DNA from: Phycisphaerales bacterium
GTDB taxonomy: Bacteria; Planctomycetota; Phycisphaerae; Phycisphaerales; SM1A02
Length of the DNA: 55,690 nt
Direction of reading: 5' to 3'
NCBI GenBank assembly: GCA_014238965.1
Contig: JABAAC010000141.1
Span: 1 to 55,690 of the forward strand
This document shows, piece after piece, positions 25,269 through 55,678 of this stretch; positions within the stretch are counted from its first letter, which is position 1; every line of letters begins with the position of its first letter. Position numbers and translations under genes: made by a program. The notes below the pieces were generated by a model, which saw only the letters and a list, made by a program, of their open reading frames with translations, made no database searches and was not told the DNA's origin.

Positions 25269-25339
25269 TGGGGATTGGTGTAACGGTAGCACGGCTGACT
25301 CTGAATCAGTTAGTCAAGGTTCGAATCCTTGATCCCCAG
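25269..25339 (+). tRNA. tRNA-Gln (CTG anticodon)
   Basis: A 71-nt cloverleaf. Acceptor stem TGGGGAT pairs with ATCCCCA (the U1-A72 pair is typical of tRNA-Gln). The D loop is AACGGTAGC and the anticodon stem GCTGA/TCAGT carries loop CTCTGAA, so the anticodon is CTG. The T arm is CAAGG-TTCGAAT-CCTTG. The discriminator is G. CCA is not encoded. Confidence 0.93.
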
Positions 25340-27292: not shown

Positions 27293-27853
27293 TCAGCCAA
27301 CGGGCCCTACGCGAACCAGTCGGCGGTCCTGCCTTGGCATGACCGCTGGTCCTCCATTGGCTGGGCTGAACCCCGTAAGCAAGTTGGCAGACGCCGGTTG
27401 CATGCCTACGGCGGCCTGGCCCAAATCCAACTCAAACCGGTAGCCTGGTAGCCCGAACATCGTTGGCCCTTCAGCCTTGCGAACAGCTGGGGCATCAAAC
27501 ATCCAAGACTTGATGATTTCCGTTGGCTGCTCGCCCTCCCCTGCCTGCACCAACTCGAATAGGAACGTCCCCGAAGAAAACACGGGATCTGGACCATTGG
27601 AGCCAAACAGCAACGCCGAAACAGACACGCGGTCACCGTAGCCATCGCCATTGGTGTCTTGACTGACCGAGGACACAATGACAGCGACACGCGTTGGAGC
27701 AGGAATGCGATCCAAAGAGGTCGTTCGTGGTTTGGGGCGAGGCGTTGGATTGCTGGAAACCGCGTAGCCATCGGGGCGCCGGGTGGACTGGCACCCACAC
27801 ATGGCTATCAGTCCCAACGCACAGCACACAAGAGCCAATGATTGCCGGAGCAT
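27293..27853 (-). CDS. Lipoprotein coupled to the giant secretin (candidate pilotin or partner)
   Basis: A 186-residue predicted lipoprotein. The signal peptide (LRQSLALVCCALGLIAMCGC) ends in a lipobox-like MCGC. After a polar, proline-rich linker comes a compact beta-rich domain ('RVAVIVSSVSQDTNGDGYGD...VSALLFGSNGPDPVFSSGTFLFEL', read in parts) with a calcium-loop-like DTNGDGYGD. Its ATG overlaps the secretin stop codon (TGATG), which implies translational coupling at matched levels. Secretins usually need a lipoprotein pilotin for outer-membrane targeting; no sequence similarity to GspS or PilF is visible, so this role is inference from position and localisation. Confidence 0.7.
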   Translation of the reverse strand: MLRQSLALVCCALGLIAMCGCQSTRRPDGYAVSSNPTPRPKPRTTSLDRIPAPTRVAVIVSSVSQDTNGDGYGDRVSVSALLFGSNGPDPVFSSGTFLFELVQAGEGEQPTEIIKSWMFDAPAVRKAEGPTMFGLPGYRFELDLGQAAVGMQPASANLLTGFSPANGGPAVMPRQDRRLVRVGPVG

Positions 27854-30800
27854 CAGGGCGATACGTCCTCGTCCGACTCTTCCACGCTCAGATCCTTGAC
27901 CTTCAACACGCCGTCCTCACGAGTAAACAAACTCTCTCGCTTTAATCGGCCATCCTTGATTTGATCGAGCATGCTGCCAGGCAAGTTCATGCGACCTATT
28001 TCGCCATCTGTCAACGCATTGATTCGATCCAGATCGGCGGGGCTTCGAATGACATGAGGCGTGATAACAATCACCAGCTCATTCCGAATGAGCGATGTGT
28101 TCTCGCTTCGGAATAACAACCCCAGCAGCGGGATATCGCCGAGAATCGGCACCTTCTCGGTGAAGTGCTCATACGACTCGTTGATCAAGCCGCCAATGAC
28201 CACGGTCTGTCCGTCGTGCACCGTAATAGTCGTGTCTGCGGTGCGCTGCAAGATGCGAGGCGACGTTACGCCCACAGCGGGCTCGTCTCGCTCTGCCAGA
28301 AGCTTCGACAGCGTCGGCTTCACATCTAAGCGCACATAGCCATCGGGATTGATGGATGGTGTCACAACCAAACTTACACCCACGTCCTTTTCTTCAAGTG
28401 GGACGCTAACGACACCCGTGTCGTAGGTTTGGGCCCCCTGGGCAACGTAGATCAGTTCGCCCACGTTGATCGTGGCTTCTTCGTTGTTCGCAGCCATGAC
28501 CGAAGGATTAGACAGAATGTGCAAGCGGCCCTGTGATTCAAGCGCTTCCAGTACCAGTTGGAAATCTGACGAACCAATTGCCAGCGATGGGACCCCCAGT
28601 AGGGACGCGACGGGAGCAATGCCCCCCACTGGCAAAGCGAAGCCTGAATCGCTGGACGCACCACCGATTCGAGCGCTAAAGTCAATACCCCAATCAACGC
28701 CACCGTCCAGCGACACCTCCGCAAGCAGCACTTGAATGAGCACCTGCGGTGGATCGACGTCGAGTGCCTCGATCATCTCTTCCACACGCTTCATGTACCG
28801 CGGGCTTGCAGACACAAGCAGACTGTTCGATTTAACATCGCCGCGAATGGTGACTTCACGCTCGAGCATACGTGCTGCTGAGCCAAGCTGACCCACGCCG
28901 AGCGTCTCGATCAATGTCTTCTGTTCTTCTTCCACGAACTCGCCAAGGACTCGTGCAACTTCCTCCGCCGTGGCATTGCGTAACTGATAGACCAACGTCT
29001 CACGCTCGTTGGCCTCCAATGTGTCCAACGTTTCGACAACCTCCTCTACGAGATCGAGATAGGCTGGCGAACCCGACACCAACAAACTGTTGGTCCGGGT
29101 ATCGACAGTAATGGCAAGTTGTTGCCGTGGGTCGGGCACAGCAGTCAATTCCGTGCCGCCGAGCCCGCCACCTTCAAGCCCGGGGCCGCCCAGTCCAGAT
29201 TCTCCCAATGCACCAGCGGCGACGGCTGCGACTTGACCATCACGTGGCTTGAGAACGAGCAGGTCCTGCCCCTCGTCCAGTCGGAATAGGTCCCGAAGAA
29301 TCGTCCGCATCGCCAATGCATCTGCATTCTCAAGCACAAAGACACGTAGGCTTTTAGACCCTGTTGACGACTCGTCAAGATCCGAGATCATGTCGACAAG
29401 CAACTGCATCGAGTCGCGAGGTGCTCGCACGATGACTGTGTTTGTTCGAACGTCAGGTGTGAGGTTAATGGTCTCTCGCAAGGCTGTTGTAATTGCCATC
29501 TCTGCAGCATCGTCATCCCCAGCAGCCACACGCATATACCGAAGTACTGTGGATCGCATCTGCCGGGCCCGCCCGCGACCGATACTTCGGCCGGCCAACA
29601 CATCTTCGATCAGACTCACAGTCTCAATTGCATTGGCCGACGACAATGGAATATGTCGAATCTCCAAGATGTCCGCCGGCGATGTGCCTTCAAGTCGCTC
29701 GATGAGATCTCGAATTTCCTCAGCATCACGTTGTGGTGCATTGACGAGAATCGAATTCAGCCCAGAATCTGCAGAGACTCGAATCGTGCCAGCCCCACGG
29801 GTCCGATTCGCTTCGCGTACATAGAGATCATCGAGCAACCGGGCGACTTCACTCGCCTGGCCAATGGACAACGGAATGACATCGACAACACGACCATCAT
29901 CACCGGTCTGCTCTGCGTCAACCAGCATTCGAAGCAGTTCCTCAATGACAACTAGGTTCTCATCACTCGCTGACACGATGAGGCTGTTGATTGAAGTGTC
30001 AAATTCGACCGACACACGATCGGTTGGGTGCTGGGCCTCTCCAAGACTGCGAGCACGCTCTTGCATGAGTTGCTCGATACGTGGTGCTAATCGCTCCGCA
30101 TTGCCGCTGCCGCCAACAGGTAATACATGCAGGCCAATGGCAGGCGAAACAGGCACGGCATCCAACTTGGCAACCAGATCCTTGATGGATTTCAGGTCCT
30201 CAGGCGACGCTGAGACAAGCAAACTGTCTGTGCGGGTATCAACCTGTATCAATGGCATTTGCCGACGACGCATGTCCGCTGGCAGATCTGCATATCGCCG
30301 CTCCATAACCGTTCGAATCGTATCGGCCAATCGTGGCGCACTGCTCGTTCCCGCGTCGATCACCTCCACAAGCGCACTGCTGATATAGGCGGCGTCATCT
30401 AGCCGTTCAAGCATCTGCTCGATAACTGTAAACCCGCCAGCACTTGCAGCAACCAATAACGTGTTTGATACCTCGTCTGCGATGACAACCGTCCGCTCCA
30501 TCGCAGCCGCTTCGGGCTCAACCGCACGGAGACGCTCGACACGGGCATCCATCATGCGCTGCACAAGCGATGCGACACGCGTGGCTGACGCACTCTGTAA
30601 CTTAAGTGTTCGGATCTCCTGAAACTCAGGTGCTTCATCTGAGTCAAGCGTGTCAAGCAATGCTTCGACAATACTGAACACCTTTGGGCTAGACGACACA
30701 ATGATGGAGTTGGTTCTGACATCGGCTTCGATCGTCGCGGCATCGTCATCATCGAGTGCCCCACTTCGAAGTTGTCCCTGAATGAGTTGGTTCAGCATGC

Positions 30801-33800
30801 TTGCCAGTTGCGGCGCAGTGGCGTGCTCCACGGGGTACACGCGAACGGTAGACGCAGGCGAGGCGCCTTCCACATCGAGCATGGAGACAAGCTCCGCTAC
30901 TACTTGAATGTTGATTGGTGAACCAACAACAACGAGCGCTTCAAGTGCTGGCTCTGGAACCAATGCAAGGCGATCCATCGGCTGAAAGATCTGTGCATCA
31001 AGAACCCCACCACCGCCTGCAGCAACACGAAGTCGTCCGACCTGCGCCTGCATTGGTCCAGCGTTGGGCAGATCGGCCGATCCTTCGACCAACACACGAT
31101 GCAACGTATCGGCCATGTCATCAGGGTCGGCAAACCTCAATGGAATGACCCGAACCTCCAACCAACCCGTTGCCATGTCGCTGTCGAGCCGCTCGACCAA
31201 TATTTCAACGGTGGCAACGGCATCCTCTCGACCGGCAATGACGACAGTGTTCGTTCGCTCATCTACCGACATCGCAACATCATCAAGCAATGCAGGACCA
31301 ACAATGCCGCTGGGTCGGCCCTGAATGTCGGTGCCTGGCAACGTAGACAATGATTTGCTCTGCGAGAAAACCTCTTCCACAATCCGGCGGAAATCCTCTG
31401 CAGCAATGTTCTCTAGCGGAATGACACGAATAACCGCGGCGCTAGAAACTGGAACCAAATCAAGCAATTCGACAATCGCCGCTACTGCAAGCACATTCGA
31501 TGTTGTGGACGTCACAACGATCGCATTCTGTGTGTTGTGCGGCACAATACGAATAGGCTCAGTCAAGTCGAGCGAGACGAGTCCCCGCCCAATTTCATCA
31601 TGCCGCAACGCGAGTCGGCGAACCTGCTCCTGTACCGCCTCAGCAAGTGGCGTACCGACTTGCTGATTCGCCGGATTGCATATCTCTGTCAAGACACGGG
31701 TCATGTCTGCCGCAGTTGCATTGTGCAATTCGATGATCTGCATGGCAGCTTCAGCGCCGCTTGGATCTTCGTCAACAGCCCGAAGAATATCGACAATGGT
31801 GCTTGTGTCCGCTGGGTTCGACATCACCATGACTGCGTTGCGACCCTCTAATGATGTCACACGTACAGGCTCATTGACGAGCCTCGACATCGTGTCGTTG
31901 CGTACAGGCTCATCCAAGCCGAGCGACTCAATGACACGAATCGCTTCACTTGGAGCAATGTGCTGCAACTCAATTACAGTCACACCATGTCCCGCTGCGG
32001 GAATCATGCCGTCTAGCTGCTCTGCTGTCTGGCGAATCTCTTGGGCAAGTGCACCGCTTGTGGCTACAACCAAACTATTGGTCATCGAGTCATACTCGAT
32101 GGATAGTGGCACATGCAGTTGCTCAGCTCTTGCTGTAAAGGTCTTGGTCAACGTGCTGGCAACGCGTGCAACCGGCGATGCCTTCAATGTAATAACGAAT
32201 ACCTTGACATCCACACTCGTATTGGGCTGATCAAGTGTGGCAACTATCGCCTCGATGCGTTCCAACGTACGTCCAGTTGCCGCCACAATGACAGAATTGG
32301 TCAGAGGCTCCGCTGAAGCGCTGACCCACTCCTCGCTCTGCACGAGCATCGTTGGAATGTCGGCATCACGTTCATCGTTTCCTGATTTTCGATTGCCTGA
32401 CTGTCCACCACGCCGGGTCACTTCCCGACTGAAAGCTTCATTAATCGACCTCGCCACCGACTTCGCCTCTGCGTGCGTCAATGGCAGCACACGAACCTGC
32501 AAAGATGAGTCATAGGCCTCGTTATCAAGCTCGGCAATAAGGGATTCGATGCCGTCCCATTCGCTCTCTTCCGCGGTGACAACCAGTGAATTCGTCGATG
32601 GGTCCGCCACAATGCTCACGTTTAACTTCGATGGCGTGTCAGCCTCCATCGCGAATGGGCCGTAGAACACCGAAAGGGCTTGGCGAATCTTGTCGGCCTC
32701 AGCGTGATCCAGTGCAAGAAAGCGAGTCTCTCGAGTGGTTGATCTTGGCGCATCGAGTTGCTCGATCAGCGTGCTCAGTTGTTCGAACTGCGAAGGCGTT
32801 GCCGCAATGATCAGTTGATTTGAGGATCGATCCGAATCGATCTCCGGTCGCGGAAACGGCATAGACATCACCATCTGCTGCAAGCTCCACCGCACGTCAT
32901 CTGCAATGGCATGCTCGAGCGACACAAGGTGATACTCGACTTCGGCAACTGTCGGCACCGCGTCCAGATCTTGAATGAGCGACGCAATAACTGGAATCGA
33001 CTCCTCGTTTGCTGTCACGATCAAACTATTCGATCGGGCGTCCGCAACAATGCGAGCGCGGACCTCAACAGGATCTGCGCCATCTTCCAGAGTGATGACT
33101 GTTCCGCTGGTACTCCCATCGCTACGAAGCCCAAGCGATTCGCGAAGCACCTGAACAACATCAGACGCCCTCGCTTCCTCCAGCGGGAATGTCTTGACGA
33201 TGCTGCGGTCTCCAACAGCCCACGTGTCAAGCACATCGAGCAGATCCTGAATCTCAGCATGCTGAGCTGCATTACCCGCCACGATCAACACCCGATGTTT
33301 CTCATCCAATCGAACAACCGGCGCGGTCTCATCGCCTTCATCCCACCATCTTCGGCCGCGGCTACTGCCATACAGGTCACGCACCATGTCATCAACCGTT
33401 TGCAAGGACGTGCCAGCCACGTGATACGTGCGAACCGTTCGCTCTGAACCTTCAGGTGATGCCGCATCAACGACGTCAATGACCTGTTCCACGATGTCAA
33501 ACGACTCACCATGGCCAGTTACAACGAGTGCATTCAGTCGAGTGTCAGGGAATACCGCAAGGCGACCAGGCATGGCGCCGTTGCTGCTTTGACTTCGTCC
33601 GAACCAGCCCCCGAAAATCTCTGCGCCAAATGACAACTGCATCACCATGTCTTTAACGGTGTTCGATACCTCTGCGGCCTTGGCATGCTTTAGTGGAAAG
33701 GCCCGAATCTGGAACTGCTCTTGATTCAAAGGACTATCCAGTCGGCTAGAGAGGTCTTGCACCGCGGCGAAGTCCTCGTCATTGGCCGCCACAAGTAGGG

Positions 33801-36800
33801 TGCTACTGCCAGGATCACCAATAACAGTGACGCTTCGCGTCGACTTGCTTATTCGAGCGCGATCGTCGTATAGCCGCTGAATTGCTTGAGCAATCATGCC
33901 CGCATCGGCACGTTCGAGTTGAATAGTTCGAATGTCAAACTGATCACTACGATCGCGATCGAGCTTTGTCACAAGACCCTTGATTCGATCTCGCATTGAA
34001 TCGTCGGCTCGAATCAGCAGCAGGCCACTGTCATCATCTGGGACAACCGTTACACCCGCAGCTGCAGCTGGGTCCGATGCCAAGAGCGACTGCTTGACCA
34101 GCTTCGCAACGGCACTTGGCTGACTTCTGACAATGTCTATTGTCTCAAGTGGAAGGAAATCCTTGGCCGTAGACACATCTAGCTGACTGAGCAGTGACTC
34201 AACTTCACTTAACTGTGGCCCCGTCGCCGTAACAATAAGTGAGTTAGTTCGCTTATCGGCAACCACCTCGGGCATCGAAACTGGAATCCCCTTCGTTCGA
34301 CGCGAGTTGTATCGGGCCTGCATCAGTTGAAGTATGGTCCGCTCCAAGTCTTCCGCTGAGGCGTGTGTTACATCAAAGATCTGAATCGCTGGCTGCCCCG
34401 CGACAGGCGCTGCATCAATGAGCGCAACCAACTGCTCAACGACCGGGATCGCCTCTGGGGGGCCCGACACAATGAGCGCACCAGTCCGATGATCTCCGCT
34501 AATGACCACCTGCTCGGGCTGGATATCTCCCTGCACGGGTTCCCCGCCAAGGACCTCAATGACCATGCGCTGCATTCGGCCCACTTGCCCAGCCTGTGCG
34601 CGAAGCATCTCTCTGACTTGTGCTGCAGCAATATTGGCCTGTGACTCCTGCAATGGAATCACCTTGACCACCCGCACTGCATTCTTGTTTGATGATGGCG
34701 TAATAGCTCGAAGCACTTCGGTCACGGTTTTGAAGTCCGCATCAGTGCACGTAATAAACATCGCCTCACCAGCAGGGTCTGGCACAATGGCAACGCGTTC
34801 GGCAACGTCGCCTCGTCTGCCACCTGCTGGGGTCATCGTGCGAAGCGTCTGCGTGAGCAATGCCGATAGCCGAGAGGGGTCATGCTTGCCATGCAAGTCA
34901 ATTCGACGCAACGAACCCGGTGCCCTGGGAGACTGCTTTAAGAGTTGGTCGAGCAGTGCACGTGCTCGCCGAACTGCTCGATCGCCACCTAGCAGCACAA
35001 GGCTGTTGGTGTTTGGATCGATGGCGATGGAAACAGTGGCTTCCGTTGGCTCTTGCGCACCAATCGCGGCTGCAACCAACCAATACTTGATTCCCAGTGG
35101 GGCAGCAGATGACTGTGATGACTTAGCCGGCGCCTCTCGGAGAAGATCCTCAAGGTCTACTATCTCCACCGATGACCCTTCGTGCTGATCGAGTAAACGC
35201 TTCAGCGTCGCCGCGAGCTCTCGGGCATCTACCTTCGATGCATCGATAGGTACAACTTCAAGTCGTTTGCCTGAAACCAACGCAGCACGGTCGATTTCCG
35301 ACACGACCTGCCGCAAGCGTGCGAGTTGGGTCTCATCGCCGCGAACCACAAGAGTATTGCTCGAACGATCCACCTGTACAAGCGCTGGCGCCAGCGCAGA
35401 ATCCTCGGCAAGTAAGGGTTGCAACGTACGTGCAAGTTCGGTGGCATCAGCATGCATGACAGGAACGACTTGCAATGACCGAGAGGTCCTCGCGGCCTGA
35501 TCAACTACATCCAGTTGCTTCACCAGCGCCTCGGCGATCGGCAGGACGCCCGGCCGGGCAACAACCACTACCGCGTTGAGCCGCGAGTCGGCCGCAACTT
35601 TCACCGAATCACGAACCTCTGGAAGCGCAACACGACGACGTGACGCTTCGATGCGCTGCTGCAACGTGTATGTCTCAGAGCCCATCAATTGCTCAACAAC
35701 TGGAGCAACACTGTCCGCGCGTGCGTGTTCGAGATAGACAGTCCGCACTTGACTAGCCTCGGCAGATACACCTTCATCGAGCGATGCGATAAGTTGTTCA
35801 GCCTCGGCGAGTGCTCCAACAGGACCCGTCAGCACTATCGCATTACTCGATGGCTCCGCCTGCACCACAACCTGCCTTGCGGCAGGGGAGAACCTGCCTT
35901 TAGCAGCCATTGCAGCCTCGATAGTCATTGTCACGGTCCCGGCGTCAGCACGCTCAAGTTGAATCACTCGAACTTCCACCGCGCCGGCATCCGACGCGGG
36001 CCGGTCCAATTCGGACAACAACGTTAAAGCCAGCGGCATAAGGTCGGCTGGTGCATCAATCATCAATCGCCCTGCCGATGTGTCAGCAATGACTGTCGAT
36101 GTAGGTACAGGCGTCCCCGCAGCATGCGCTTGGCGAAGTACGTGGGGCCAACGAGCACGATCCCGCAACATTGCCGTCAATACCGGCGCGAGCGCAGCAG
36201 GATCACTGTGCTTAATGTCATGAGCCATCATCTGCATCTCTAGGGGCAGCGGCGTTGCATCATCTCGCTCTTTCAAAAGAGCCATGACTGCATCTACATC
36301 CGCTGCGCGGCCAGACACAAGCACTGTGCGGGTACGCAAGTCTGGTAACAATTCCAAATCGGTCACAGACTTGCCTAAGGCGCCAGCGTTCACCAAGTGT
36401 CGAACTGTATTCACGAGGGCAGTTGGATCTGAACGCATCGGTTCAAACTCTGCGATTGTCGATGAGACATCGAGTAGCCGTACCGCACGTTCAATCTCTT
36501 TAAATTGCCCAGGCTCTGCCTTCACAACCAACATCTGCAGCGCATCGACTGGCTGCAACGACGGCATGGTGAAGCCAGGCTTATAGGCATCGTCAAGCAA
36601 TACGCCAAGCGAACTTCGCAAGGCTGTGGCAACCTCTGAGGCCCGAGCAGCCATCAATGGCAATCGTCGAGTCTCTTGTGTGTTGGGGCGAGCTGCCTCA
36701 AGTTGTGTCAACAACGTGCCCATTCGATTGACCCCACTTCGTGGGCCCGTAATGACGGCAGTGCCATCGGCACTCACATCCACATCCACACCTTCAAGTT

Positions 36801-38166
36801 CTTCAGGAGCCAGCCGCTGAGCCTGCGTAATGGCCTCTTCGACTCCATTTGGACGAAGATGCAGCACACGAACATCGGCTGTTTCAATCGATTTGGCATC
36901 GAGCGCTGGCACAATTGCCATCACAGCGGCCACTTCCTCGGTGGGACCAGCCAGCACTAAACTACGTCCGTCTGGCCCTGCAGCCATTCTGAGGCGGCTT
37001 TTTCGACTCTGAGGCAGAATCTTGTCTAGCGCCAGAAGAACTGCCGGGGCACGGGCATCCTTCAAGGGCATGTTCTCGATGGTCTGTTCACCCCCCGGGG
37101 CAGAGGAGCCCTCCAAAGCAGCGACCATTTGAGCGACTTCCTCAACACGGCCCTTCAGCCCAGACACACCAATTGAGAGCTGTTCCTGCATCGGCACGAG
37201 CACCGGCCGCTCGCCCTCAGGCATGGCGGCAATCACGGTACTCAGTCGCTGAATCGCGCTGTTGACATCAAGCAACGAAAGTGGCAACACACGCAGTTCG
37301 CGATCGCCACCACCGGACGCTGTGTCGAGCAGCGCAATGATCTCTCGCAAACGATCCATTCCCGGCTTGGCACCCTTTGCGATAATTGCATTGCTTCGCA
37401 CATCGGCACTGAACGACACACCTTGCAGTGATACCTCTTCAACCTTCTGCAATTTTCCCTTCTTGCCCGGAATCCATTTCTCAACCTTGACCGACATCAA
37501 GTCGTTCAGTGGTTTGATCAATGAATACGCAGGCACATGCTTAAGCGGAAAGACTTCGACTAAACCTTCGGGCGACTGCTGGTCGGCCTGTTCGATGATG
37601 TGCAACAGTCGGCGCACCTGGCCCGCCATCTCCGTGAGCACGATCGCGTTCTGGCCGGGCAGTGAGATGAGTTGGCCATACTCGCCAACCATCGGTTTGA
37701 GTTGCTCTGTCATTGTCTCGGCGGTCGCCGAACGAAGCGGTCGCATGACCGTGATCAGCTGATCATCAGTGATGTCATCCGGAACCGTGTTCATGAATGT
37801 CGGAAGGTTCGCCCGTTGCATGTCCTTGAGCGCTTCAAGCCGAAGCACGTCGCCGTCCACACGAACTGTGACACCCTTGGTCTGCAAAATTGTGTTGAGG
37901 ACGCGGAGCCCGTTAGAAAGGTCATACGTCTCCGGGGACTTGAATGTAATTGTGCCCTTTGGGACCTCCGTGGCAATGACCATGGGCATGCCCGCCGCGC
38001 GAGACACAACATCAAGCACCGTCTCAATGTCGGCTTGTCCAAATGCGAATCGAAGTTCGATGGGCGCGCGGACTTCCTCCGCAACAGACTCGTCCGCTAT
38101 CACATCCAAACTCAAACCGCTCAACACAGCTGAGAACAAAAGGACCGCGCGCAGTCGACCAGTCAT
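27853..38166 (-). CDS. gspD: Giant type II secretion secretin (GspD-like) with about 36 N-modules
   Basis: A 3,437-residue outer-membrane secretin; ordinary GspD is about 650-700. Order: signal peptide (1-24); N0 domain (about 35-111, 'ELRFAFGQADIETVLDVVSR', then 'KGVTVRVDGDVLRLEAL'); about 36 tandem secretin-N modules (about 136-3135); one secretin channel domain (about 3137-3410); and a charged C-terminal tail of about 30 residues. The channel domain has 'LIQVLLAEVSLDGGVDWG', 'HILSNPSVMAANNEEATINVG', 'DVGVSLVVTPSIN' and 'VIGGLINESYEHFTEKVPILGDIPLLGLLF' (read in parts), and the terminal 'NELVIVITPHVI'. The frame is unbroken over 10.3 kb. A GGAGAGG lies 8 nt upstream of the ATG. It follows the M/C-like gene and is coupled to a lipoprotein. 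I know of no standard secretin with this module number. Confidence 0.93.
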   Translation of the reverse strand: MTGRLRAVLLFSAVLSGLSLDVIADESVAEEVRAPIELRFAFGQADIETVLDVVSRAAGMPMVIATEVPKGTITFKSPETYDLSNGLRVLNTILQTKGVTVRVDGDVLRLEALKDMQRANLPTFMNTVPDDITDDQLITVMRPLRSATAETMTEQLKPMVGEYGQLISLPGQNAIVLTEMAGQVRRLLHIIEQADQQSPEGLVEVFPLKHVPAYSLIKPLNDLMSVKVEKWIPGKKGKLQKVEEVSLQGVSFSADVRSNAIIAKGAKPGMDRLREIIALLDTASGGGDRELRVLPLSLLDVNSAIQRLSTVIAAMPEGERPVLVPMQEQLSIGVSGLKGRVEEVAQMVAALEGSSAPGGEQTIENMPLKDARAPAVLLALDKILPQSRKSRLRMAAGPDGRSLVLAGPTEEVAAVMAIVPALDAKSIETADVRVLHLRPNGVEEAITQAQRLAPEELEGVDVDVSADGTAVITGPRSGVNRMGTLLTQLEAARPNTQETRRLPLMAARASEVATALRSSLGVLLDDAYKPGFTMPSLQPVDALQMLVVKAEPGQFKEIERAVRLLDVSSTIAEFEPMRSDPTALVNTVRHLVNAGALGKSVTDLELLPDLRTRTVLVSGRAADVDAVMALLKERDDATPLPLEMQMMAHDIKHSDPAALAPVLTAMLRDRARWPHVLRQAHAAGTPVPTSTVIADTSAGRLMIDAPADLMPLALTLLSELDRPASDAGAVEVRVIQLERADAGTVTMTIEAAMAAKGRFSPAARQVVVQAEPSSNAIVLTGPVGALAEAEQLIASLDEGVSAEASQVRTVYLEHARADSVAPVVEQLMGSETYTLQQRIEASRRRVALPEVRDSVKVAADSRLNAVVVVARPGVLPIAEALVKQLDVVDQAARTSRSLQVVPVMHADATELARTLQPLLAEDSALAPALVQVDRSSNTLVVRGDETQLARLRQVVSEIDRAALVSGKRLEVVPIDASKVDARELAATLKRLLDQHEGSSVEIVDLEDLLREAPAKSSQSSAAPLGIKYWLVAAAIGAQEPTEATVSIAIDPNTNSLVLLGGDRAVRRARALLDQLLKQSPRAPGSLRRIDLHGKHDPSRLSALLTQTLRTMTPAGGRRGDVAERVAIVPDPAGEAMFITCTDADFKTVTEVLRAITPSSNKNAVRVVKVIPLQESQANIAAAQVREMLRAQAGQVGRMQRMVIEVLGGEPVQGDIQPEQVVISGDHRTGALIVSGPPEAIPVVEQLVALIDAAPVAGQPAIQIFDVTHASAEDLERTILQLMQARYNSRRTKGIPVSMPEVVADKRTNSLIVTATGPQLSEVESLLSQLDVSTAKDFLPLETIDIVRSQPSAVAKLVKQSLLASDPAAAAGVTVVPDDDSGLLLIRADDSMRDRIKGLVTKLDRDRSDQFDIRTIQLERADAGMIAQAIQRLYDDRARISKSTRSVTVIGDPGSSTLLVAANDEDFAAVQDLSSRLDSPLNQEQFQIRAFPLKHAKAAEVSNTVKDMVMQLSFGAEIFGGWFGRSQSSNGAMPGRLAVFPDTRLNALVVTGHGESFDIVEQVIDVVDAASPEGSERTVRTYHVAGTSLQTVDDMVRDLYGSSRGRRWWDEGDETAPVVRLDEKHRVLIVAGNAAQHAEIQDLLDVLDTWAVGDRSIVKTFPLEEARASDVVQVLRESLGLRSDGSTSGTVITLEDGADPVEVRARIVADARSNSLIVTANEESIPVIASLIQDLDAVPTVAEVEYHLVSLEHAIADDVRWSLQQMVMSMPFPRPEIDSDRSSNQLIIAATPSQFEQLSTLIEQLDAPRSTTRETRFLALDHAEADKIRQALSVFYGPFAMEADTPSKLNVSIVADPSTNSLVVTAEESEWDGIESLIAELDNEAYDSSLQVRVLPLTHAEAKSVARSINEAFSREVTRRGGQSGNRKSGNDERDADIPTMLVQSEEWVSASAEPLTNSVIVAATGRTLERIEAIVATLDQPNTSVDVKVFVITLKASPVARVASTLTKTFTARAEQLHVPLSIEYDSMTNSLVVATSGALAQEIRQTAEQLDGMIPAAGHGVTVIELQHIAPSEAIRVIESLGLDEPVRNDTMSRLVNEPVRVTSLEGRNAVMVMSNPADTSTIVDILRAVDEDPSGAEAAMQIIELHNATAADMTRVLTEICNPANQQVGTPLAEAVQEQVRRLALRHDEIGRGLVSLDLTEPIRIVPHNTQNAIVVTSTTSNVLAVAAIVELLDLVPVSSAAVIRVIPLENIAAEDFRRIVEEVFSQSKSLSTLPGTDIQGRPSGIVGPALLDDVAMSVDERTNTVVIAGREDAVATVEILVERLDSDMATGWLEVRVIPLRFADPDDMADTLHRVLVEGSADLPNAGPMQAQVGRLRVAAGGGGVLDAQIFQPMDRLALVPEPALEALVVVGSPINIQVVAELVSMLDVEGASPASTVRVYPVEHATAPQLASMLNQLIQGQLRSGALDDDDAATIEADVRTNSIIVSSSPKVFSIVEALLDTLDSDEAPEFQEIRTLKLQSASATRVASLVQRMMDARVERLRAVEPEAAAMERTVVIADEVSNTLLVAASAGGFTVIEQMLERLDDAAYISSALVEVIDAGTSSAPRLADTIRTVMERRYADLPADMRRRQMPLIQVDTRTDSLLVSASPEDLKSIKDLVAKLDAVPVSPAIGLHVLPVGGSGNAERLAPRIEQLMQERARSLGEAQHPTDRVSVEFDTSINSLIVSASDENLVVIEELLRMLVDAEQTGDDGRVVDVIPLSIGQASEVARLLDDLYVREANRTRGAGTIRVSADSGLNSILVNAPQRDAEEIRDLIERLEGTSPADILEIRHIPLSSANAIETVSLIEDVLAGRSIGRGRARQMRSTVLRYMRVAAGDDDAAEMAITTALRETINLTPDVRTNTVIVRAPRDSMQLLVDMISDLDESSTGSKSLRVFVLENADALAMRTILRDLFRLDEGQDLLVLKPRDGQVAAVAAGALGESGLGGPGLEGGGLGGTELTAVPDPRQQLAITVDTRTNSLLVSGSPAYLDLVEEVVETLDTLEANERETLVYQLRNATAEEVARVLGEFVEEEQKTLIETLGVGQLGSAARMLEREVTIRGDVKSNSLLVSASPRYMKRVEEMIEALDVDPPQVLIQVLLAEVSLDGGVDWGIDFSARIGGASSDSGFALPVGGIAPVASLLGVPSLAIGSSDFQLVLEALESQGRLHILSNPSVMAANNEEATINVGELIYVAQGAQTYDTGVVSVPLEEKDVGVSLVVTPSINPDGYVRLDVKPTLSKLLAERDEPAVGVTSPRILQRTADTTITVHDGQTVVIGGLINESYEHFTEKVPILGDIPLLGLLFRSENTSLIRNELVIVITPHVIRSPADLDRINALTDGEIGRMNLPGSMLDQIKDGRLKRESLFTREDGVLKVKDLSVEESDEDVSP
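28762..37761 (-). repeat. Array of about 36 diverged secretin-N protein modules
   Basis: Each module averages about 84 residues and follows one plan. It starts with a strand 'lr-v-pL-hA-a-el', continues with a helix ending in a charged loop of very variable length, then has a strand pair around 'D.RTNSLIV.A' and closes with a helix 'ie.li..LD'. Good examples of the core are 'DVRTNSIIVSSSP', 'DKRTNSLIVTATG', 'DTRTDSLLVSASP' and 'DPSTNSLVVTAEE'. Early modules (about 3 to 8) are degenerate in the core. Inserts occur in some loops, for instance before 'DPNTNSLVLLGG' and a glycine-rich one before 'DTRTNSLLVSGSP'. The modules differ strongly in sequence, so the array is old and not a recent DNA amplification. 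Confidence 0.85.
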
Positions 38167-38233: not shown

Positions 38234-39163
38234 TCAGGGGCGTTGAATAGCCTCGCCGGCCCCGACTACCCACTCATCACCTGCTTGGGCGAATGTCGCA
38301 ACGTCGATCCCATCAGGGTCAGGTTGAATGGAAATCAGTTTTATGCCGTTCAGAGCGTCGCCAACGACCATCCGCCGTCGCTTTCCCTTCTTGGATTGCA
38401 GCAGCACTTCCCCCTCTCCCTGCACTCGCCCAATGTGCACAACTCGCCAGCCCGGGGGTGGCTTAGCTGTTGGCCCGGGCCCCGGCGGCATTGGGGATGG
38501 CGGCGGCGAAGGTACGGCAAAGGGGTTGGGTAGATCCAGTGATGACACAGCCGAAAGCGGCAAGGCAAATTCAATCGCCTCCGTGGGCCCCGCGCCGGGC
38601 ACGAATAGCGCCGACAGTTGCACCGTTGCTTCAACCCTTGCGCCTTCATCGCGACCTGCCAGTCGAATGCGTGTCACGCGGTGCGGCCAAGGCTCGGCTT
38701 TGATTGACTCCACGAGCAAGCCCACCTGCGCCCAGGTGCCTTGGGCGGTGATACTCGCTGGAACAAGTAGAAAGTCTGGCTCATCGCGCAGCTCACGCAA
38801 GCTACGCAATTTGAATTCACGTTTGCCTGGCGACGCCTCTACTACCGGCGTACTTGTCCCAACACGCACATCCTGGACTCCTGCAGCTTCCGCCAACTCA
38901 CCAAGTCGAGATCGCAATGCTAAGTCCATCGCTTCGACAGTCGACCCCAATGTGCGAGAGGTAATGGCATCAATACCATTGGTGATGTCCTTTGAACGAT
39001 CCAGATCGCGACGGCGGCCATCCAACGATGCCTTCGCGCGATCGATGCGAACTTGAACGGCCGCGGCGGGAGATTGCACCCACGCCCAGGTCGCCCACCA
39101 CAGCACACCAATGAGCACAACTGCACCAACCGAGTACAAGACAACCGTGGTCCGGCCTGTCAT
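38234..39163 (-). CDS. GspM/PilO-like inner-membrane protein with GspC/PilP-like C-terminus
   Basis: A 309-residue bitopic protein. A single N-terminal membrane helix (VVLYSVGAVVLIGVLWWATWAWV) is followed by a coiled-coil segment (KASLDGRRRDLDRSKDITN), then a ferredoxin-like PilO/GspM-type domain of about 120 residues. A proline-rich linker (PSPPPSPMPPGPGPTAKPPPG, in parts) leads to a small beta domain ('HIGRVQGEGEVLLQSKKGKRRRMVVGDALNGIKLISIQPD', read in parts) like the GspC HR or PilP domain that contacts secretin N0. Fusion of M-like and C-like parts would replace the missing separate gspC. It overlaps gspL by 4 nt and precedes the secretin by 67 nt. Confidence 0.7.
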   Translation of the reverse strand: MTGRTTVVLYSVGAVVLIGVLWWATWAWVQSPAAAVQVRIDRAKASLDGRRRDLDRSKDITNGIDAITSRTLGSTVEAMDLALRSRLGELAEAAGVQDVRVGTSTPVVEASPGKREFKLRSLRELRDEPDFLLVPASITAQGTWAQVGLLVESIKAEPWPHRVTRIRLAGRDEGARVEATVQLSALFVPGAGPTEAIEFALPLSAVSSLDLPNPFAVPSPPPSPMPPGPGPTAKPPPGWRVVHIGRVQGEGEVLLQSKKGKRRRMVVGDALNGIKLISIQPDPDGIDVATFAQAGDEWVVGAGEAIQRP

Positions 39164-40665
39164 GGCGAGGGTGTCTCCGACGATGAGACACGATCGAGCC
39201 GAAGCGTCATGTCGTTAGGGAGCCGACGTCCATCTGCCGCGTCGGCGCCGCTGGTTGTTACAACCCAAGGCTCTGTGCGCGCAAGACGACTTCGCAACGC
39301 TTCAGCTTGATCACGCGATGATGCCTCCGCTTCAATGGTGACCCGCTCAGACCAGGGCAACGTCCACTTCGTTGGCGCGGTACCCCGAGGCGCATCAACC
39401 GCATTCATGTCTAGGCTTAGTACAACATCATCAAGCAGCACGTCACCAGGCGGTCCCACTGCTATGAGTACGGCTCCCAGGTCGGCAGCAAGGTCCGGAC
39501 CTGTGGATGTCCACAACTCCAAATGGCCCAATTTGAAGCTGTCGCGGTTGAACCGCCACCACTGTTTATCAAGGCGATCACGAGCAGTCTCAACCTGATC
39601 GAGTTGCTGCATCAAGACTCGCTCACGTCGACCGCCCCAGGCCCAAATGCCACCGAGCAGCACAACCAAGGCCAATATTCCCAACAAGACGCGCTGGCGC
39701 AGTTGCGCCGCTCGATCAGGCGATTGTCGTGGGTTGAGCAGATCAATCCAAGCGCGACCAGTGTTTTCGGCAACAAGAAGCCCAGCAAGCGAGCGAACTT
39801 CCTGCAGGTCCCGACCAGCGTCATCAATCCCCTCAGGAACATCCACCACGACCGCTGGCGCGGCGGTAATGGACGACACAGGCTCGGCCAACTGCGACAC
39901 GATTGCAACGGGGCCGCTGAGATACACCCGCGCAGGTTCAGGGCCTTCACCCTCTGTTCGCCACGCCAACCAAGTACGACGAACTTCCAGCGTAACCGCG
40001 CTGACAATCGCATCGAGATTGTCTGCGTCCAATGTCGCTGAACGTGCGCGCCTTGGTTCCCCATCTTCGACCCAGAGCACTTCAACGTGACTTCCAGAAA
40101 TGTCCACGATGACTAGTGATCCGATGCGAGGCGCAAGCGCCTCAGCGCCGAACAGCCGAAGCGTGACAACACGCGCCGGTCTACCAGCCAATTTCATCCG
40201 TCGACGAACATCATCAAGATCCGATGCGGGAATGGCGGCTGACAACACTTCGGCCGTCTCATCGCCGTGATGCACCGGCAGTGAATCGATCACTGCTGTT
40301 TCCGGATCGATGGGCAAATCACGTGCTGTAGCAAGCGCCGCCATTGCTGGCAGATCTGCCGGACTTGCGCCGGGCAGTTCCTGACGCTTGAGTACGACAT
40401 CTTCCCGCGGCACCGAGACAATGCATGCGCAACGAGGAATGCCCGCAGCGTCGAGCATGTCTGCAACCCATTGCGCCTGCGACTCTATGGTGTCCAAGCC
40501 ATCGGGCCGCGGTTTGACAACTGTGGCCTCGAGTCGAAGCCCTCCCCCATCGAGGCACACTGCGGATACGGCGCGAAGCCGTCGGGCCGTCAGTTCTACG
40601 GCTACTCGGTGTCGACCGGGCGTTGTGCGTCCCATGCGTTTGAGCATCGGGCGAATCGTACCCAC
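39160..40665 (-). CDS. gspL: GspL/PilM-PilN-like assembly platform protein
   Basis: A roughly 500-residue protein combining an actin-like cytoplasmic domain and a bitopic C-terminal part, as in GspL or fused PilM-PilN. The first half has 'RVAVELTARRLRAVSAV', a phosphate-type loop region, 'IVSVPREDVVLKRQELPG' and 'LVIVDISGSHVEVLWVEDGE', all typical of PilM/GspL ASKHA folds. A membrane helix (VLLGILALVVLLGGIWAWGG, about residues 328-347) is followed by a coiled coil (MQQLDQVETARDRLDKQWW) and a periplasmic alpha-beta domain. It would link the cytoplasmic ATPase GspE to the pseudopilus. The start could be GTG 40665, ATG 40647 or ATG 40635; none has a clear ribosome site. Confidence 0.75.
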   Translation of the reverse strand: MGTIRPMLKRMGRTTPGRHRVAVELTARRLRAVSAVCLDGGGLRLEATVVKPRPDGLDTIESQAQWVADMLDAAGIPRCACIVSVPREDVVLKRQELPGASPADLPAMAALATARDLPIDPETAVIDSLPVHHGDETAEVLSAAIPASDLDDVRRRMKLAGRPARVVTLRLFGAEALAPRIGSLVIVDISGSHVEVLWVEDGEPRRARSATLDADNLDAIVSAVTLEVRRTWLAWRTEGEGPEPARVYLSGPVAIVSQLAEPVSSITAAPAVVVDVPEGIDDAGRDLQEVRSLAGLLVAENTGRAWIDLLNPRQSPDRAAQLRQRVLLGILALVVLLGGIWAWGGRRERVLMQQLDQVETARDRLDKQWWRFNRDSFKLGHLELWTSTGPDLAADLGAVLIAVGPPGDVLLDDVVLSLDMNAVDAPRGTAPTKWTLPWSERVTIEAEASSRDQAEALRSRLARTEPWVVTTSGADAADGRRLPNDMTLRLDRVSSSETPSP

Positions 40666-40667
40666 GA

Positions 40668-41987
40668 TCAGCGCCAGCGTCCGACACGCTGAGCAGATGG
40701 CTGTGATGATGCCGCGTCTTCTTCCAAAGGATCATCCGGTAGCGGATCATCGATGTCTGCTCGATCGTCTTGAAAAAAGGCCCCGTCAACTGGCATGTCC
40801 TCTTCCGAGTCCATGATCCGAGGGGCACTATCGAGTTCGAGATCCTCCTGATGAAGAGGCTCTGGGAGCGGCAACCCCTCAATCGATCCGGGGGGACCAA
40901 TCAGACGGCGAAGCATGGCCACCCGTGGAACCTCGCCGGCAACATCAAAGACAACCTCGGCCCAAATTGGATCTAGCAAGACACTGGATTCATCTGACTC
41001 GATCACTTCACCACAGGCAATGGTGCATCGCCAAGTCCACGAGCCGACGGTGAGCAACGGAAGTAAGCCTGACTCGAGCGATCGGCTGAGCCCCGCTTCG
41101 GTCCACGGCCATGACAGTGTTGCTCTCAACTCATCGGGCAATGTGTCTCGAATCGCCACGAGATGGTGTGCTTGCTCGCTATCGATACCCGGCAACGTCG
41201 CAAGTGTCGACGCGGGCGCCCCGGCTAAGTCGATTCGACCCAACAGAAACCCTTCATCAGCAGGAGCGGTGTGTTGCAAAATAGCCCCCCAAAGTTCAGC
41301 GGTAGGCGACGCGGCTGCCACCCTTGTGGCGAAGGTCTCCGGTGCCCCTTCCGGAAGTGACGCCAAAACTTCGATCGCTTCATCGCTTAGGACATCATGT
41401 AACGATGCCGCAAATTCGTCGGACCATGGCTCGACCGTCAACTGCTCAGGACCGCGGATGGGCGCGTGCGCATACACGGTTAGGTTGACCCCCTCGGAAC
41501 TACTCGCAGATGAGCCGATCGCCTCCAATACTGCAGCACGATCAAGCAATCCCGTGTCAGGCGATGCATCCCTCGCGGCTACCACCGCATCGGCCATCGA
41601 CTGATTCATGTGTTCCAATCTCGACATTGCCTCAGCAGTTGCGTGGTTGGCATCTAGGCTGGCACCCTCTGCAATAGGTTCGGGATTCTGGTCGCCAACA
41701 CCCAGCAGCCGAACGACAATTCGGCGTCCTTGCACGGTCCAAAGCGTGAGCTCTTGGGGCAAGTCCGCAGGCACGCCCGCTGCAAGTGCATCTCGCTGAT
41801 CGGCCAACTGCTGCAGGAGCACGCGCACAGCAGACTGCATACGAAGTTGTGCATTGGAGCGCCGCACATCCAGATCGCTCGCTGAAACACTAACTGCTGC
41901 AATCTGCACCAGAGCCGCAGCAAGCCATATCGATGCCGCGCCTATGACCGCCACGGAAGCAAGCACAATGCCACGTCGTTGCATCAT
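40668..41987 (-). CDS. gspK: GspK-like minor pseudopilin
   Basis: A 439-residue protein starting with a short basic leader and a hydrophobic helix (RRGIVLASVAVIGAASIWLAAALVQI, in parts), as in GspK-type tip pseudopilins. The helical stalk is followed by a large globular part containing helix-hairpin-helix-like 'ASTLATLPGIDSEQAHHLVAIRD', a hallmark of GspK family proteins. The cleavage motif is atypical (RRG^I, without a clear Glu5), which also matches GspK, where the Glu is often missing. The C-terminus is very acidic (DDRADIDDPLPDDPLEED). It overlaps gspJ by 4 nt and leaves 2 nt before the most upstream gspL start. It should cap the pseudopilus tip with GspI and GspJ. Confidence 0.8.
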   Translation of the reverse strand: MMQRRGIVLASVAVIGAASIWLAAALVQIAAVSVSASDLDVRRSNAQLRMQSAVRVLLQQLADQRDALAAGVPADLPQELTLWTVQGRRIVVRLLGVGDQNPEPIAEGASLDANHATAEAMSRLEHMNQSMADAVVAARDASPDTGLLDRAAVLEAIGSSASSSEGVNLTVYAHAPIRGPEQLTVEPWSDEFAASLHDVLSDEAIEVLASLPEGAPETFATRVAAASPTAELWGAILQHTAPADEGFLLGRIDLAGAPASTLATLPGIDSEQAHHLVAIRDTLPDELRATLSWPWTEAGLSRSLESGLLPLLTVGSWTWRCTIACGEVIESDESSVLLDPIWAEVVFDVAGEVPRVAMLRRLIGPPGSIEGLPLPEPLHQEDLELDSAPRIMDSEEDMPVDGAFFQDDRADIDDPLPDDPLEEDAASSQPSAQRVGRWR

Positions 41988-42541
41988 GTTGGCTCCATAC
42001 CAAGGCCTGGGATCACCAAAATGCGCCGTCGGTCCGGTGGCGTGTCCTCATCAGGCTCGGCCAGAAGCCAAGCATCAATCACCACAACGCTTGGCAAACC
42101 ACCGGTCTCTAACGTATCGAACGAGTCAACCCACTGACCATCATGTCGGGTGCGCACACGCAGCGTGGCCATGCCGGGCACGATGACGCCTTCGCCTTCA
42201 AGGCCGGTAAGCGAAATGCCTACGCCGTCATCTTGCATTGATACAACGTGTCGGCCTGGCACGGCAGTTTCAATGCCGGGCCGATCCATGGCCGCGTGCA
42301 GCCGAATGGACCGCGCTGATGTCACAAGGCCAGGCAACGCCCCCGCACGAACGGCGACGGTTGTAAATGCGTCGTCGATCGTGTCGAGCGCCAGATCCAA
42401 GGTCCGAAGCGACTCGGTCCGATCCACAATCCGCTGGCGATCTCGTGCAAGACCAAGTAACAAGGTGGCGGACACCGCGAGGGTGGCAATCAACAACGAT
42501 GTGCCCAACAGCACTTCGACCAATGTCATGCCTCGCCTCAT
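41984..42541 (-). CDS. gspJ: GspJ-like minor pseudopilin
   Basis: Roughly 185 residues from the ATG at 42541 (MRRGMTLVEVLLGTSLLIAT). The cleavage motif is G^MTLVE, with the required Glu5, followed by a 20-residue hydrophobic helix and a beta-rich globular part ('GISLTGLEGEGVIVPGMATLRVRTRHDGQWV', read in parts) that fits GspJ. The frame extends 19 codons upstream to 42598, but that part lies inside gspI. It overlaps gspI and gspK by a few nt each. It forms the tip complex with GspI and GspK. Confidence 0.78.
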   Translation of the reverse strand: MRRGMTLVEVLLGTSLLIATLAVSATLLLGLARDRQRIVDRTESLRTLDLALDTIDDAFTTVAVRAGALPGLVTSARSIRLHAAMDRPGIETAVPGRHVVSMQDDGVGISLTGLEGEGVIVPGMATLRVRTRHDGQWVDSFDTLETGGLPSVVVIDAWLLAEPDEDTPPDRRRILVIPGLGMEPT

Positions 42542-42945
42542 CAAATGCGCTCCTGTAGGCGCAGGTCCGATGGCACGAGCGCCCGAACCATTGCCCAAAC
42601 ACCATCTTCGTCACGCTCGCGCACCGTCACGACGAGAAGCACAAGCCCTGGCTCTGTTGAAGGCTCCGATTCCACATCGAGAACTACAACATCGGCGTCA
42701 CCGGCAAACACCGACTGTTCAAGCAGTTCTGGCATGTCTTCATCACGGAGGTCGCCGAGCCCCACAAGGCCCGCTTCAGCCATACGCACAATTGCCACCG
42801 CCGCGTCATTGCAACGGCGGCGCCTATCCGCTCGATCCAGTGCCTGTTCCGCATCGTCCATTGCCTGCAGTGTGAAAGCGCCGGCACCGACCACGATGAC
42901 CAACGCTACAAGTACCTCCATCAGCAATACACCACGGCGCCTCAT
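42541..42945 (-). CDS. gspI: GspI-like minor pseudopilin
   Basis: About 134 residues from the ATG at 42945 (MRRRGVLLMEVLVALVIVVG). The leader and cleavage motif G^VLLMEVLVAL with Glu5 are typical of GspI, as is the short length. The globular part ends in 'LVLLVVTVRERDEDGVW'. The frame continues to 43026 inside gspH. Its ATG overlaps the gspH stop and its stop overlaps the gspJ ATG, so the three are translationally linked. Confidence 0.78.
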   Translation of the reverse strand: MRRRGVLLMEVLVALVIVVGAGAFTLQAMDDAEQALDRADRRRRCNDAAVAIVRMAEAGLVGLGDLRDEDMPELLEQSVFAGDADVVVLDVESEPSTEPGLVLLVVTVRERDEDGVWAMVRALVPSDLRLQERI

Positions 42946-43499
42946 GACATGGGCTCGGGCACAGGCAATTGTGAGACAGGTGGCTCGACTGATGACACAT
43001 GGCCGGTTAAAGCATCGAATTGCCATGCACCGCGTCGGCCATTGCCGTCTTCGAACACCAGTGGCTTGGGCATTCGTGCTTGACCGTCGGGCAACACAAT
43101 CGCTATCACCATTGGCAGTTCATCGTCTTTGGATGCAATTCCCGCCAAATGCATATCCATAAGCACTGGCGCATCATCTTCACCAATCCATGGGCGAACG
43201 CGCAGCATGTCTGGCGATTCCAGTCGAACGAGAATTGGCTGTTGTCTATCAATCGCTTCGATACGCGCTCGTTCAAGCAGCGTTCGCAATCGGAAAGCGT
43301 CCGAGGTCCAAGCAGCTTCGTCTCGAACAGTTTCAGCAGTAGGCAACACGAGCGCACCCACCGCTAACAACAGCATGAGCACGAGCAGCAATTCGAACAG
43401 TGTCAGTCCGCGGCGTTCAGCCGGTCGCTGTGTCCGAGCCACTGCTTGGGAAACTGCCGTCCGACTCGATCTCGCCGTCTGCGTTCTTTCGGCGGTCAT
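42942..43499 (-). CDS. gspH: GspH-like minor pseudopilin
   Basis: A pseudopilin of up to 185 residues. The cleavage motif is G^LTLFELLLVL with Glu5, followed by a hydrophobic helix and a stalk ('LRTLLERARIEAIDRQQPILVRL') very like GspH/FimT. The globular beta part includes 'KPLVFEDGNGRRGAWQFD'. The ATG at 43499 overlaps gspG by 83 nt and gives an unusually long leader; a GTG at 43442 would give a 12-residue leader and a 26-nt overlap. The start is unresolved. Confidence 0.78.
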   Translation of the reverse strand: MTAERTQTARSSRTAVSQAVARTQRPAERRGLTLFELLLVLMLLLAVGALVLPTAETVRDEAAWTSDAFRLRTLLERARIEAIDRQQPILVRLESPDMLRVRPWIGEDDAPVLMDMHLAGIASKDDELPMVIAIVLPDGQARMPKPLVFEDGNGRRGAWQFDALTGHVSSVEPPVSQLPVPEPMS

Positions 43500-43920
43500 G
43501 GTTCGTCACATCGTCCTCGGTGTTCTCTTCGCCATCGGGGCCCACAGAAACAAGGTCGTACGTCGATTCATCCAGCAACTCACCCGGATATCGATAGATG
43601 ATTTCGTGATTCCAATTGTCTTGGGCGATTGGGCTGATGTAGATGCCCCTCCAGCGGCCAAGGTCGGCCTCATCCTCGATGAGTTCCTTATCCCAAAGCA
43701 CCGCAATGCCCTCATCCTCAGTGGGGTACCGCTTCATGTCGATGCGGAAACGCTCCAGTGCAGAATCGATCTGGTCGAACTGGGCCCGTTGAATATCTGC
43801 CTCAGCTTGGTCGCCAACCGAGAGGAAACTCACGGTCACGATCGCCCCGAGCGCCAGCAGAATTGAGATCACAATGAGCAGCTCAAAGAGCGTGAAGCCT
43901 CTTGCATTGCGTTGGTTCAT
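43417..43920 (-). CDS. gspG: Major pseudopilin GspG
   Basis: About 167 residues from the ATG at 43920, with AAAGGAG about 9 nt upstream. The leader (MNQRNAR) ends at G^FTLFELLIVIS with Glu5. The GspG signature is clear: 'LERFRIDMKRYPTEDEGIAVL', 'WRGIYISPIAQDNWNHEIIYRYPGE' (read in parts) and a calcium-loop-like 'YDLVSVGPDGEENTEDDV'. The C-terminus is longer than usual and polar (KNADGEIESDGSFPSSGSD). It polymerises into the pseudopilus that pushes cargo through the secretin. It follows gspF by 54 nt. Confidence 0.88.
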   Translation of the reverse strand: MNQRNARGFTLFELLIVISILLALGAIVTVSFLSVGDQAEADIQRAQFDQIDSALERFRIDMKRYPTEDEGIAVLWDKELIEDEADLGRWRGIYISPIAQDNWNHEIIYRYPGELLDESTYDLVSVGPDGEENTEDDVTNHDRRKNADGEIESDGSFPSSGSDTATG

Positions 43921-43974
43921 TTGGCGCATCTCCTTTGGCCACAGCCCCACATGGCTGCTGGCTTTTTGAACAGC

Positions 43975-53552: not shown

Positions 53553-53574
53553 GTCATCTGCTCCCGTGCGGCAC

Positions 53575-53956: not shown

Positions 53957-55678
<1,722 letters not shown>

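Follow-up and report, generated by a model that had tools for sequence, protein, structure and literature searches.

A giant GspD-type secretin with 36 N modules encoded in a variant type II secretion operon of a Phycisphaerales bacterium

To our knowledge, secretins of known structure possess between one and five N rings in addition to N0, and none of them approaches a tube length above 100 nm. PilQ of Thermus thermophilus comprises domains N0-N5, which form six rings, and together with its channel it is 350 Å long and 125 Å wide; its extra rings were interpreted as spanning a wide periplasm (PMC5745081). The filamentous phage secretin pIV (7ofh) represents the opposite extreme, with N0 and one N domain, in a family in which the number of N domains varies (PMC8563730). 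Planctomycetes are characterized by an enlarged periplasm and inner-membrane invaginations (PMC5394234, PMC3660258), and crateriform structures, envelope complexes joining the outer and the inner membrane, have been described in them (PMC5394234). Here, a 55,690-nucleotide stretch of a Phycisphaerales genome (contig JABAAC010000141.1, hereafter the window) was analysed, with a focus on a secretin of 3,437 residues, about five times the usual secretin length, which carries 36 ring-type modules in comparison with about three in an ordinary secretin.

Our reading is that this giant serves a variant type II secretion system (T2SS) as its outer-membrane secretin, GspD, with the rings stacked into a continuous periplasmic conduit, and a probability of roughly 0.58 is given to this reading. 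The giant resembles T. thermophilus PilQ in having rings beyond the usual number, but the latter has 757 residues and six rings instead of 37, and it belongs to a type IV pilus/competence system for piliation and DNA uptake. The giant was not equated with the crateriform structures, because the described Phycisphaeraceae are reported to lack them (PMC8882080).

An initial annotation of the window, made from its sequence, had limited known secretins to N0 plus one to three modules, which is too narrow in view of the N0-N5 of T. thermophilus PilQ (PMC5745081), and had proposed the giant as the best candidate for an undescribed system. In a literature search whose coverage excluded most subscription journals and all preprints, no secretin exceeding five N rings in addition to N0 and no giant secretin from the Planctomycetes-Verrucomicrobia-Chlamydiae (PVC) group was found, and a survey of proteins above 5,000 residues does not mention secretins (PMC11573180). 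The idea of an isolated undescribed system was not supported, since the giant is the GspD of a recognisable T2SS operon and is conserved across the class and in a second phylum.

Domain layout and predicted fold

The giant is encoded on the minus strand by a single unbroken frame, which starts with ATG downstream of a good ribosome-binding site, AAGGAG. The initial annotation had proposed this frame, and a signal peptide, an N0 domain, about 36 modules and a single C-terminal channel within it; both proposals were confirmed, the latter by Pfam, by a hidden Markov model (HMM) and by eye. The features are as follows.

27853..38166, minus strand: giant GspD-type secretin (signal peptide, N0, 36 N modules and secretin channel)
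38092..38166, minus strand: signal peptide, boundary MTGRLRAVLLFSAVLSGLSLDVIA/DES, read by eye
37840..38043, minus strand: N0 domain, residues 42-109 (type_II_gspD_N0, PF21305, 29.6 bits against a cut-off of 27, E 6e-7)
28759..37779, minus strand: 36 tandem N modules, residues 130-3136 (PF03958, own HMM, AlphaFold of the last ten)
35038..35160, minus strand: insert within one module, residues 1003-1043, with the signal-peptide-like hydrophobic stretch GIKYWLVAAAIGAQEP
28045..28545, minus strand: secretin channel domain, residues 3208-3374 (PF00263, E 5e-49)

The module count was verified in three steps. A Pfam scan found 33 Secretin_N stretches (PF03958, E 5e-280), an HMM built from the window's giant and 20 relatives recognised 34 modules between residues 196 and 3136, and two further modules, at 130-195 and 428-492, were clear by eye, which gives 36 modules plus N0. 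The spacing of the modules is mostly 70-105 residues. Base composition is even, and no direct DNA repeats of at least 40 bases were found within the gene.

The C-terminal part (residues 2238-3437) was modelled with AlphaFold as a monomer, using an alignment with 31 relatives. The model contains ten successive beta-alpha-beta-beta-alpha modules with pLDDT (predicted local distance difference test) mostly of 75-90, joined by linkers of 4-9 residues and followed by a secretin channel. In VIA-align the modelled barrel matched ExeD (6i1x, Z 14.4), and GspD, XcpQ and the isolated N domains of XcpQ and GspD were also matched; Foldseek agrees with this result. The last ten modules are thus predicted to have the GspD N-domain fold. 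The channel domain further matched GspD 5wln (E 1e-43) and, by Foldseek, 5zdh (E 4e-26).

Age, distribution and divided forms of the module array

Within the window's giant, the modules share on average 26% identity, with a maximum of 43%, and no higher-order repeat was seen, identity being independent of offset from 1 to 6. Recent tandem duplication was ruled out by these values together with the lack of DNA repeats. In comparison with L045, a locus in a metagenome-assembled genome (MAG) of the same genus, 30/30 modules were collinear at 69% identity in the same architecture. Reciprocal best module hits with L046, from the same family, were collinear in 33 of 33 cases (shuffle maximum 12), and the same was true of 23/23 modules between Phycisphaerae L057 and L120 of the Limisphaerales, Verrucomicrobiota (shuffle maximum 11). 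Orthologue scores exceeded those of paralogues in the same protein for 31-34 of 34 modules. These comparisons indicate that the modules are old, distinct parts, orthologous position by position across genomes. Such position-specific constraint is expected if each module has to match the same module of the other chains within a ring, as well as specific modules in the adjoining rings. L046 carries about 15 modules that have no counterpart in the window's giant; they lie between the matches to the latter's modules -31 and -29. The length differences among giants come from blocks of modules lost or gained.

The distribution was surveyed in a sample of 377 Phycisphaerae genomes with the C-terminal region as query and a threshold of E 1e-50. 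A close relative of this region was present in 192 of these genomes. Among the best 150 matches, the open frames reached at least 3,000 residues in 83 cases, at least 4,000 in 60 and at least 5,000 in 5, the longest being a frame of 6,169 residues with 63 modules. The survey of module number that the initial annotation had called for gave 29-63 modules in one-piece giants. Single-contig genomes are among the carriers (G002, G032, G038, G167, G227, G450 and G482), and one relative sits on the chromosome-level record CP070772.1. Within the family to which the window belongs (f1), 14 genomes of small size (1.9-2.8 Mb) gave no giant match at the threshold. Locus L083 was left out, because its extremely long branch and the presence of another, overlapping frame with modules were taken to indicate a frameshift.

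Giants are also carried by Verrucomicrobiota, with 29-47 detected modules; in a Limisphaerales-class sample, 11 of 188 genomes had a close relative, nine of them in frames of more than 3,000 residues. In a tree of secretin domains, the Verrucomicrobiota giants fall within a modestly supported set together with some Phycisphaerae giants, and both transfer and deep common ancestry are possible. Spread by viruses was rejected, as viral contigs gave only two distant matches. In other sampled Planctomycetota, secretins have mostly 700-900 residues, and some have 1,200-1,500 residues with 7-9 modules; module number runs from 3 in outgroup systems through 7-9 in Planctomycetia secretins to 29-63 in one-piece giants. 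A few records deserve separate mention. The Phycisphaeraceae MAG G567 has two giant frames, of 4,234 and 3,710 residues, on contigs C34 and C113; the former (L099) is placed near the Verrucomicrobial giants in the tree and has no lipoprotein match, which may reflect a mixed bin or transfer. In the public records L095, L097, L113, L114 and L118, labelled Cyanobacteria, Leptolyngbya or Akkermansia muciniphila, the giants cluster with those of Phycisphaerales or of uncultured Verrucomicrobia, and these records are probably mislabelled MAGs.

One Phycisphaerae family (L063, L125, L127, L133 and L146) encodes the molecule as two adjacent genes, both with exported products. The first product is a module-only protein of about 2,400-2,800 residues with 20-25 modules and no channel; the second is a secretin of 1,500-1,760 residues, which contains 12-15 modules and has a signal peptide of its own. 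The totals, about 34-40 modules, are similar to those of one-piece giants. In alignments, the secretin piece corresponds to roughly the final dozen modules of one-piece giants, and for L127 against the one-piece giant L055, 11/11 modules were collinear at identical positions counted from the end. No clear module collinearity was found between the module-only piece and one-piece giants. Module-only proteins of 2,600-2,700 residues were also found in Planctomycetia-type genomes, where they were unlinked to a secretin in the genome examined. The following module-only giants were noted, those scanned having 12-18 Pfam Secretin_N stretches and no channel.

L063:6137-14512, minus strand: module-only giant
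L127:2-7684: module-only giant
L064:9274-17376, minus strand: module-only giant
L159:2-7825: module-only giant

A different division was observed in the genus of L081 and L082, where the gene is split in the middle of a module and the second half-module follows a new signal peptide in the next protein. The insert of the window's giant lies in this same module, and its position and character are kept in about 30 Phycisphaerales giants, with stretches such as YWLVAAAIG-AQ, LAFVTLAFA-Q and GSAVFA-Q in one-piece forms. The hydrophobic stretch is short, and another segment of the chain is usually more hydrophobic. The insert is either what a gene fusion left behind or a site that is still cleaved.

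Operon context and family assignment

The giant closes a GspF-G-H-I-J-K-L-M operon on the same strand, and this gene order recurs in relatives. The partner genes are as follows.

43975..45153, minus strand: GspF inner-membrane platform protein (PF00482, E 2.5e-50)
43417..43950, minus strand: GspG major pseudopilin (PF08334, E 5e-21; TIGR01710, 96 bits against a cut-off of 89)
42942..43499, minus strand: minor pseudopilin, GspH-like (TIGR01708, E 1e-5)
42541..43026, minus strand: minor pseudopilin, GspI-like (weak match; operon position)
41984..42598, minus strand: minor pseudopilin, GspJ-like (weak match; operon position)
40668..41987, minus strand: GspK-type minor pseudopilin with HHH_3 (conserved in the operon)
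39160..40665, minus strand: GspL-type (PilM-PilN-like) platform protein, 501 residues (weak PilM match; position beside giants conserved)
38234..39163, minus strand: inner-membrane protein, 309 residues, with PilO/GspM fold and GspC-HR/PilP-like domain (AlphaFold, VIA-align)
27293..27853, minus strand: lipoprotein, 186 residues; start overlaps the giant's stop (TGATG); family-consensus lipobox LAGC

The 309-residue protein consists of a PilO/GspM part (PilO 2rjz, Z 11.4), a proline-rich linker and an HR domain, the last of which matches GspC HR 3oss_C, from a GspC-GspD complex, over residues 235-303 (Z 8.3) and PilP 2lc4 (Z 7.0). A sequence search of the PDB with this protein gave no match, the homology being visible by fold comparison only. 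In the 3-module systems L140, L147, L151 and L152, two adjacent separate genes match its profile; they are read as probable M and C parts that are not fused. In the GspC-GspD pair, the HR domain is the established N0 ligand, and the fused GspM-HR protein is consequently the predicted HR partner of the giant's N0, which would place the giant's N-terminus at the inner membrane.

A homologue of the lipoprotein was found beside expanded secretins in 90 of about 95 loci; it is missing only from the five 3-module systems and from five further loci, which are truncated, frameshifted or divergent or contain modules alone. The family has no match in Pfam or NCBIfam, and the protein is a candidate pilotin or accessory factor. 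This operon contains no GspE; six full-length GspE-type ATPases are encoded elsewhere in the genome, and GspE adjoins the operon in one relative.

The giant is the GspD of a variant T2SS by the structural and contextual features that were compared: it has the channel domain, N0, N modules of the ring fold, platform and pseudopilin genes and a predicted HR-type partner. It is filed as GspD on these grounds and because module number is not a defining trait, the ordinary size of about three N modules being a descriptive character from which its 36 modules depart. The GspD equivalog TIGR02517 scored 972 bits against a cut-off of 351, a total inflated by the repeated stretches. An identity as PilQ was rejected on the basis of the absence of an AMIN match, a GspD score far above that of PilQ, the GspG/GspK operon and a separate PilQ-like secretin in the genome, and an identity as SctC, the type III secretion system (T3SS) secretin, because no T3SS genes lie among the giant's neighbours. 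In comparison with the usual T2SS, the differences are the 36 N modules instead of three with about five times the length, the HR domain fused to GspM, the conserved lipoprotein of no named family behind the giant and the operon without GspE.

Some further genes of the window can be recorded. A protein of 578 residues with a signal peptide and no family match (25484-27217, minus strand) was seen only in the same genus among the loci examined, and a transfer RNA gene (25269-25339, plus strand) lies on the opposite strand between a purE-like gene and the gene of this protein. Two adjacent cpn60-family chaperonin genes (51942-53606 and 53960-55678, minus strand) have DnaJ downstream (50704-51834), and two overlapping tandem genes are alpha/beta-hydrolase-like (16375-18123 and 18078-19769, minus strand), the second being barely recognised by Pfam.

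The proposed conduit and its alternatives

From established knowledge of secretins it would follow that the giant forms a 12-15-mer with the N0 end at the inner membrane and the channel end in the outer membrane. In the proposed mechanism, each module position of the 12-15 assembled copies would form one ring and the rings would stack into a continuous periplasmic tube; the fused GspM/PilO-HR protein would receive N0 through its HR domain, and the 186-residue lipoprotein would help to place the channel. With a rise of 3-4 nm per ring, taken from the geometry of T. thermophilus PilQ (PMC5745081), we infer for about 37 rings a tube of about 110-150 nm, so that the roughly 100 nm of the initial annotation stands as an inference and moves upwards. 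Such a tube would let the pseudopilus machine serve sites at which the two membranes are widely separated, and such sites are known in planctomycetes. The giant may serve invaginated zones, and ring number may be an evolvable length setting. The wider claim, that this is a machine of the whole class and of Verrucomicrobiota, built from one or two giant polypeptides as a continuous multi-ring tube well above 100 nm whose ring number sets the distance bridged, is judged to have an even chance.

Several points weigh against the conduit. We know of no precedent for a pseudopilus working through a tube of more than 100 nm. The monomer model, with a mean pLDDT of 70 and a pTM (predicted template modelling score) of 0.33, does not fix the arrangement from module to module. 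The main objection is that the same genome has normal-length secretins of 634 (PilQ-like) and 1,035 residues (MshL-like), and another, GspD-like, of at least 887 residues with 5 modules at a contig end; the periplasm is therefore not everywhere 100 nm deep and close membrane contacts must exist, which argues against a uniformly wide periplasm. The roughly two-fold spread of module number (29-63) means that length is not strictly fixed. No imaging of a Phycisphaerae cell with such a tube was found in the literature search, and the described Phycisphaeraceae are reported to be without crateriform structures (PMC8882080).

The alternative that survives best, though we consider it unlikely, is that only the few C-terminal modules form rings under the channel, and that the other 30 or so form no rings but make 12-15 flexible arms, a skirt, or else a scaffold or tether in the periplasm by which the secretin is attached to peptidoglycan or to the inner membrane. 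The open inter-module arrangement of the model and the coexisting shorter secretins suit this explanation; moreover, disorder is frequent in the most N-terminal domains of the secretin structures known so far (PMC8563730), and in some lineages a separate protein carries most of the modules, its gene lying apart from that of the secretin in the Planctomycetia genome. Against this explanation, both ends of the apparatus are retained, N0 with its HR partner and the channel, the linkers are short, the ring-building fold is kept throughout and orthology is position-specific.

It is improbable, in our estimate, that the chain works as two pieces after a cut at the insert, so that a base composed of modules alone and a secretin with a reduced vestibule associate or act separately. 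The conservation of the insert in Phycisphaerales giants and the split of L081 and L082 exactly there, with a second piece that has its own signal peptide, would fit cleavage, and the same kind of division is standard in another family, at a different place. Nevertheless, a fusion relic explains the insert equally well, and its hydrophobic stretch has the modest character described above.

Less probable again is a pilus or uptake machine in place of an exporter, in which the long channel would guide a pilus that brings polysaccharides into the periplasm. The platform proteins do resemble the type IV pilus PilM-N-O-P set, and planctomycetes take up dextran, apparently via pore-associated pili (PMC5394234). 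Yet the operon includes a major pseudopilin recognised as GspG together with minor pseudopilins and GspK, the secretin comes closest to GspD, the genome has a separate PilQ-like secretin and crateriform structures are absent from described Phycisphaeraceae (PMC8882080). An assembly error or a frameshift-driven fusion of unrelated genes, the refutation foreseen in the initial annotation, has next to no chance even though the window comes from a fragmented MAG of 211 contigs, given the same architecture in dozens of genomes, some single-contig, and on CP070772.1, the collinear orthologous modules and the absence of DNA repeats; chance and mis-assembly are excluded for the giant.

If the stacked-ring conduit is correct, the complex would have a mass of about 5.7 MDa here if 15-meric, and up to 10 MDa for the form of 6,169 residues, and it should be visible by cryo-tomography. 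The conserved 29-63-module family exceeds the known range of secretins by an order of magnitude. The natural series of 3, 7-9, 12-15 plus a partner, and 29-63 modules suits the question of whether ring number sets machine length. The giants offer a handle on the registry of giant repeat proteins during oligomerisation, as well as on the means by which envelope machines cross the wide, invaginated periplasm of the PVC bacteria.
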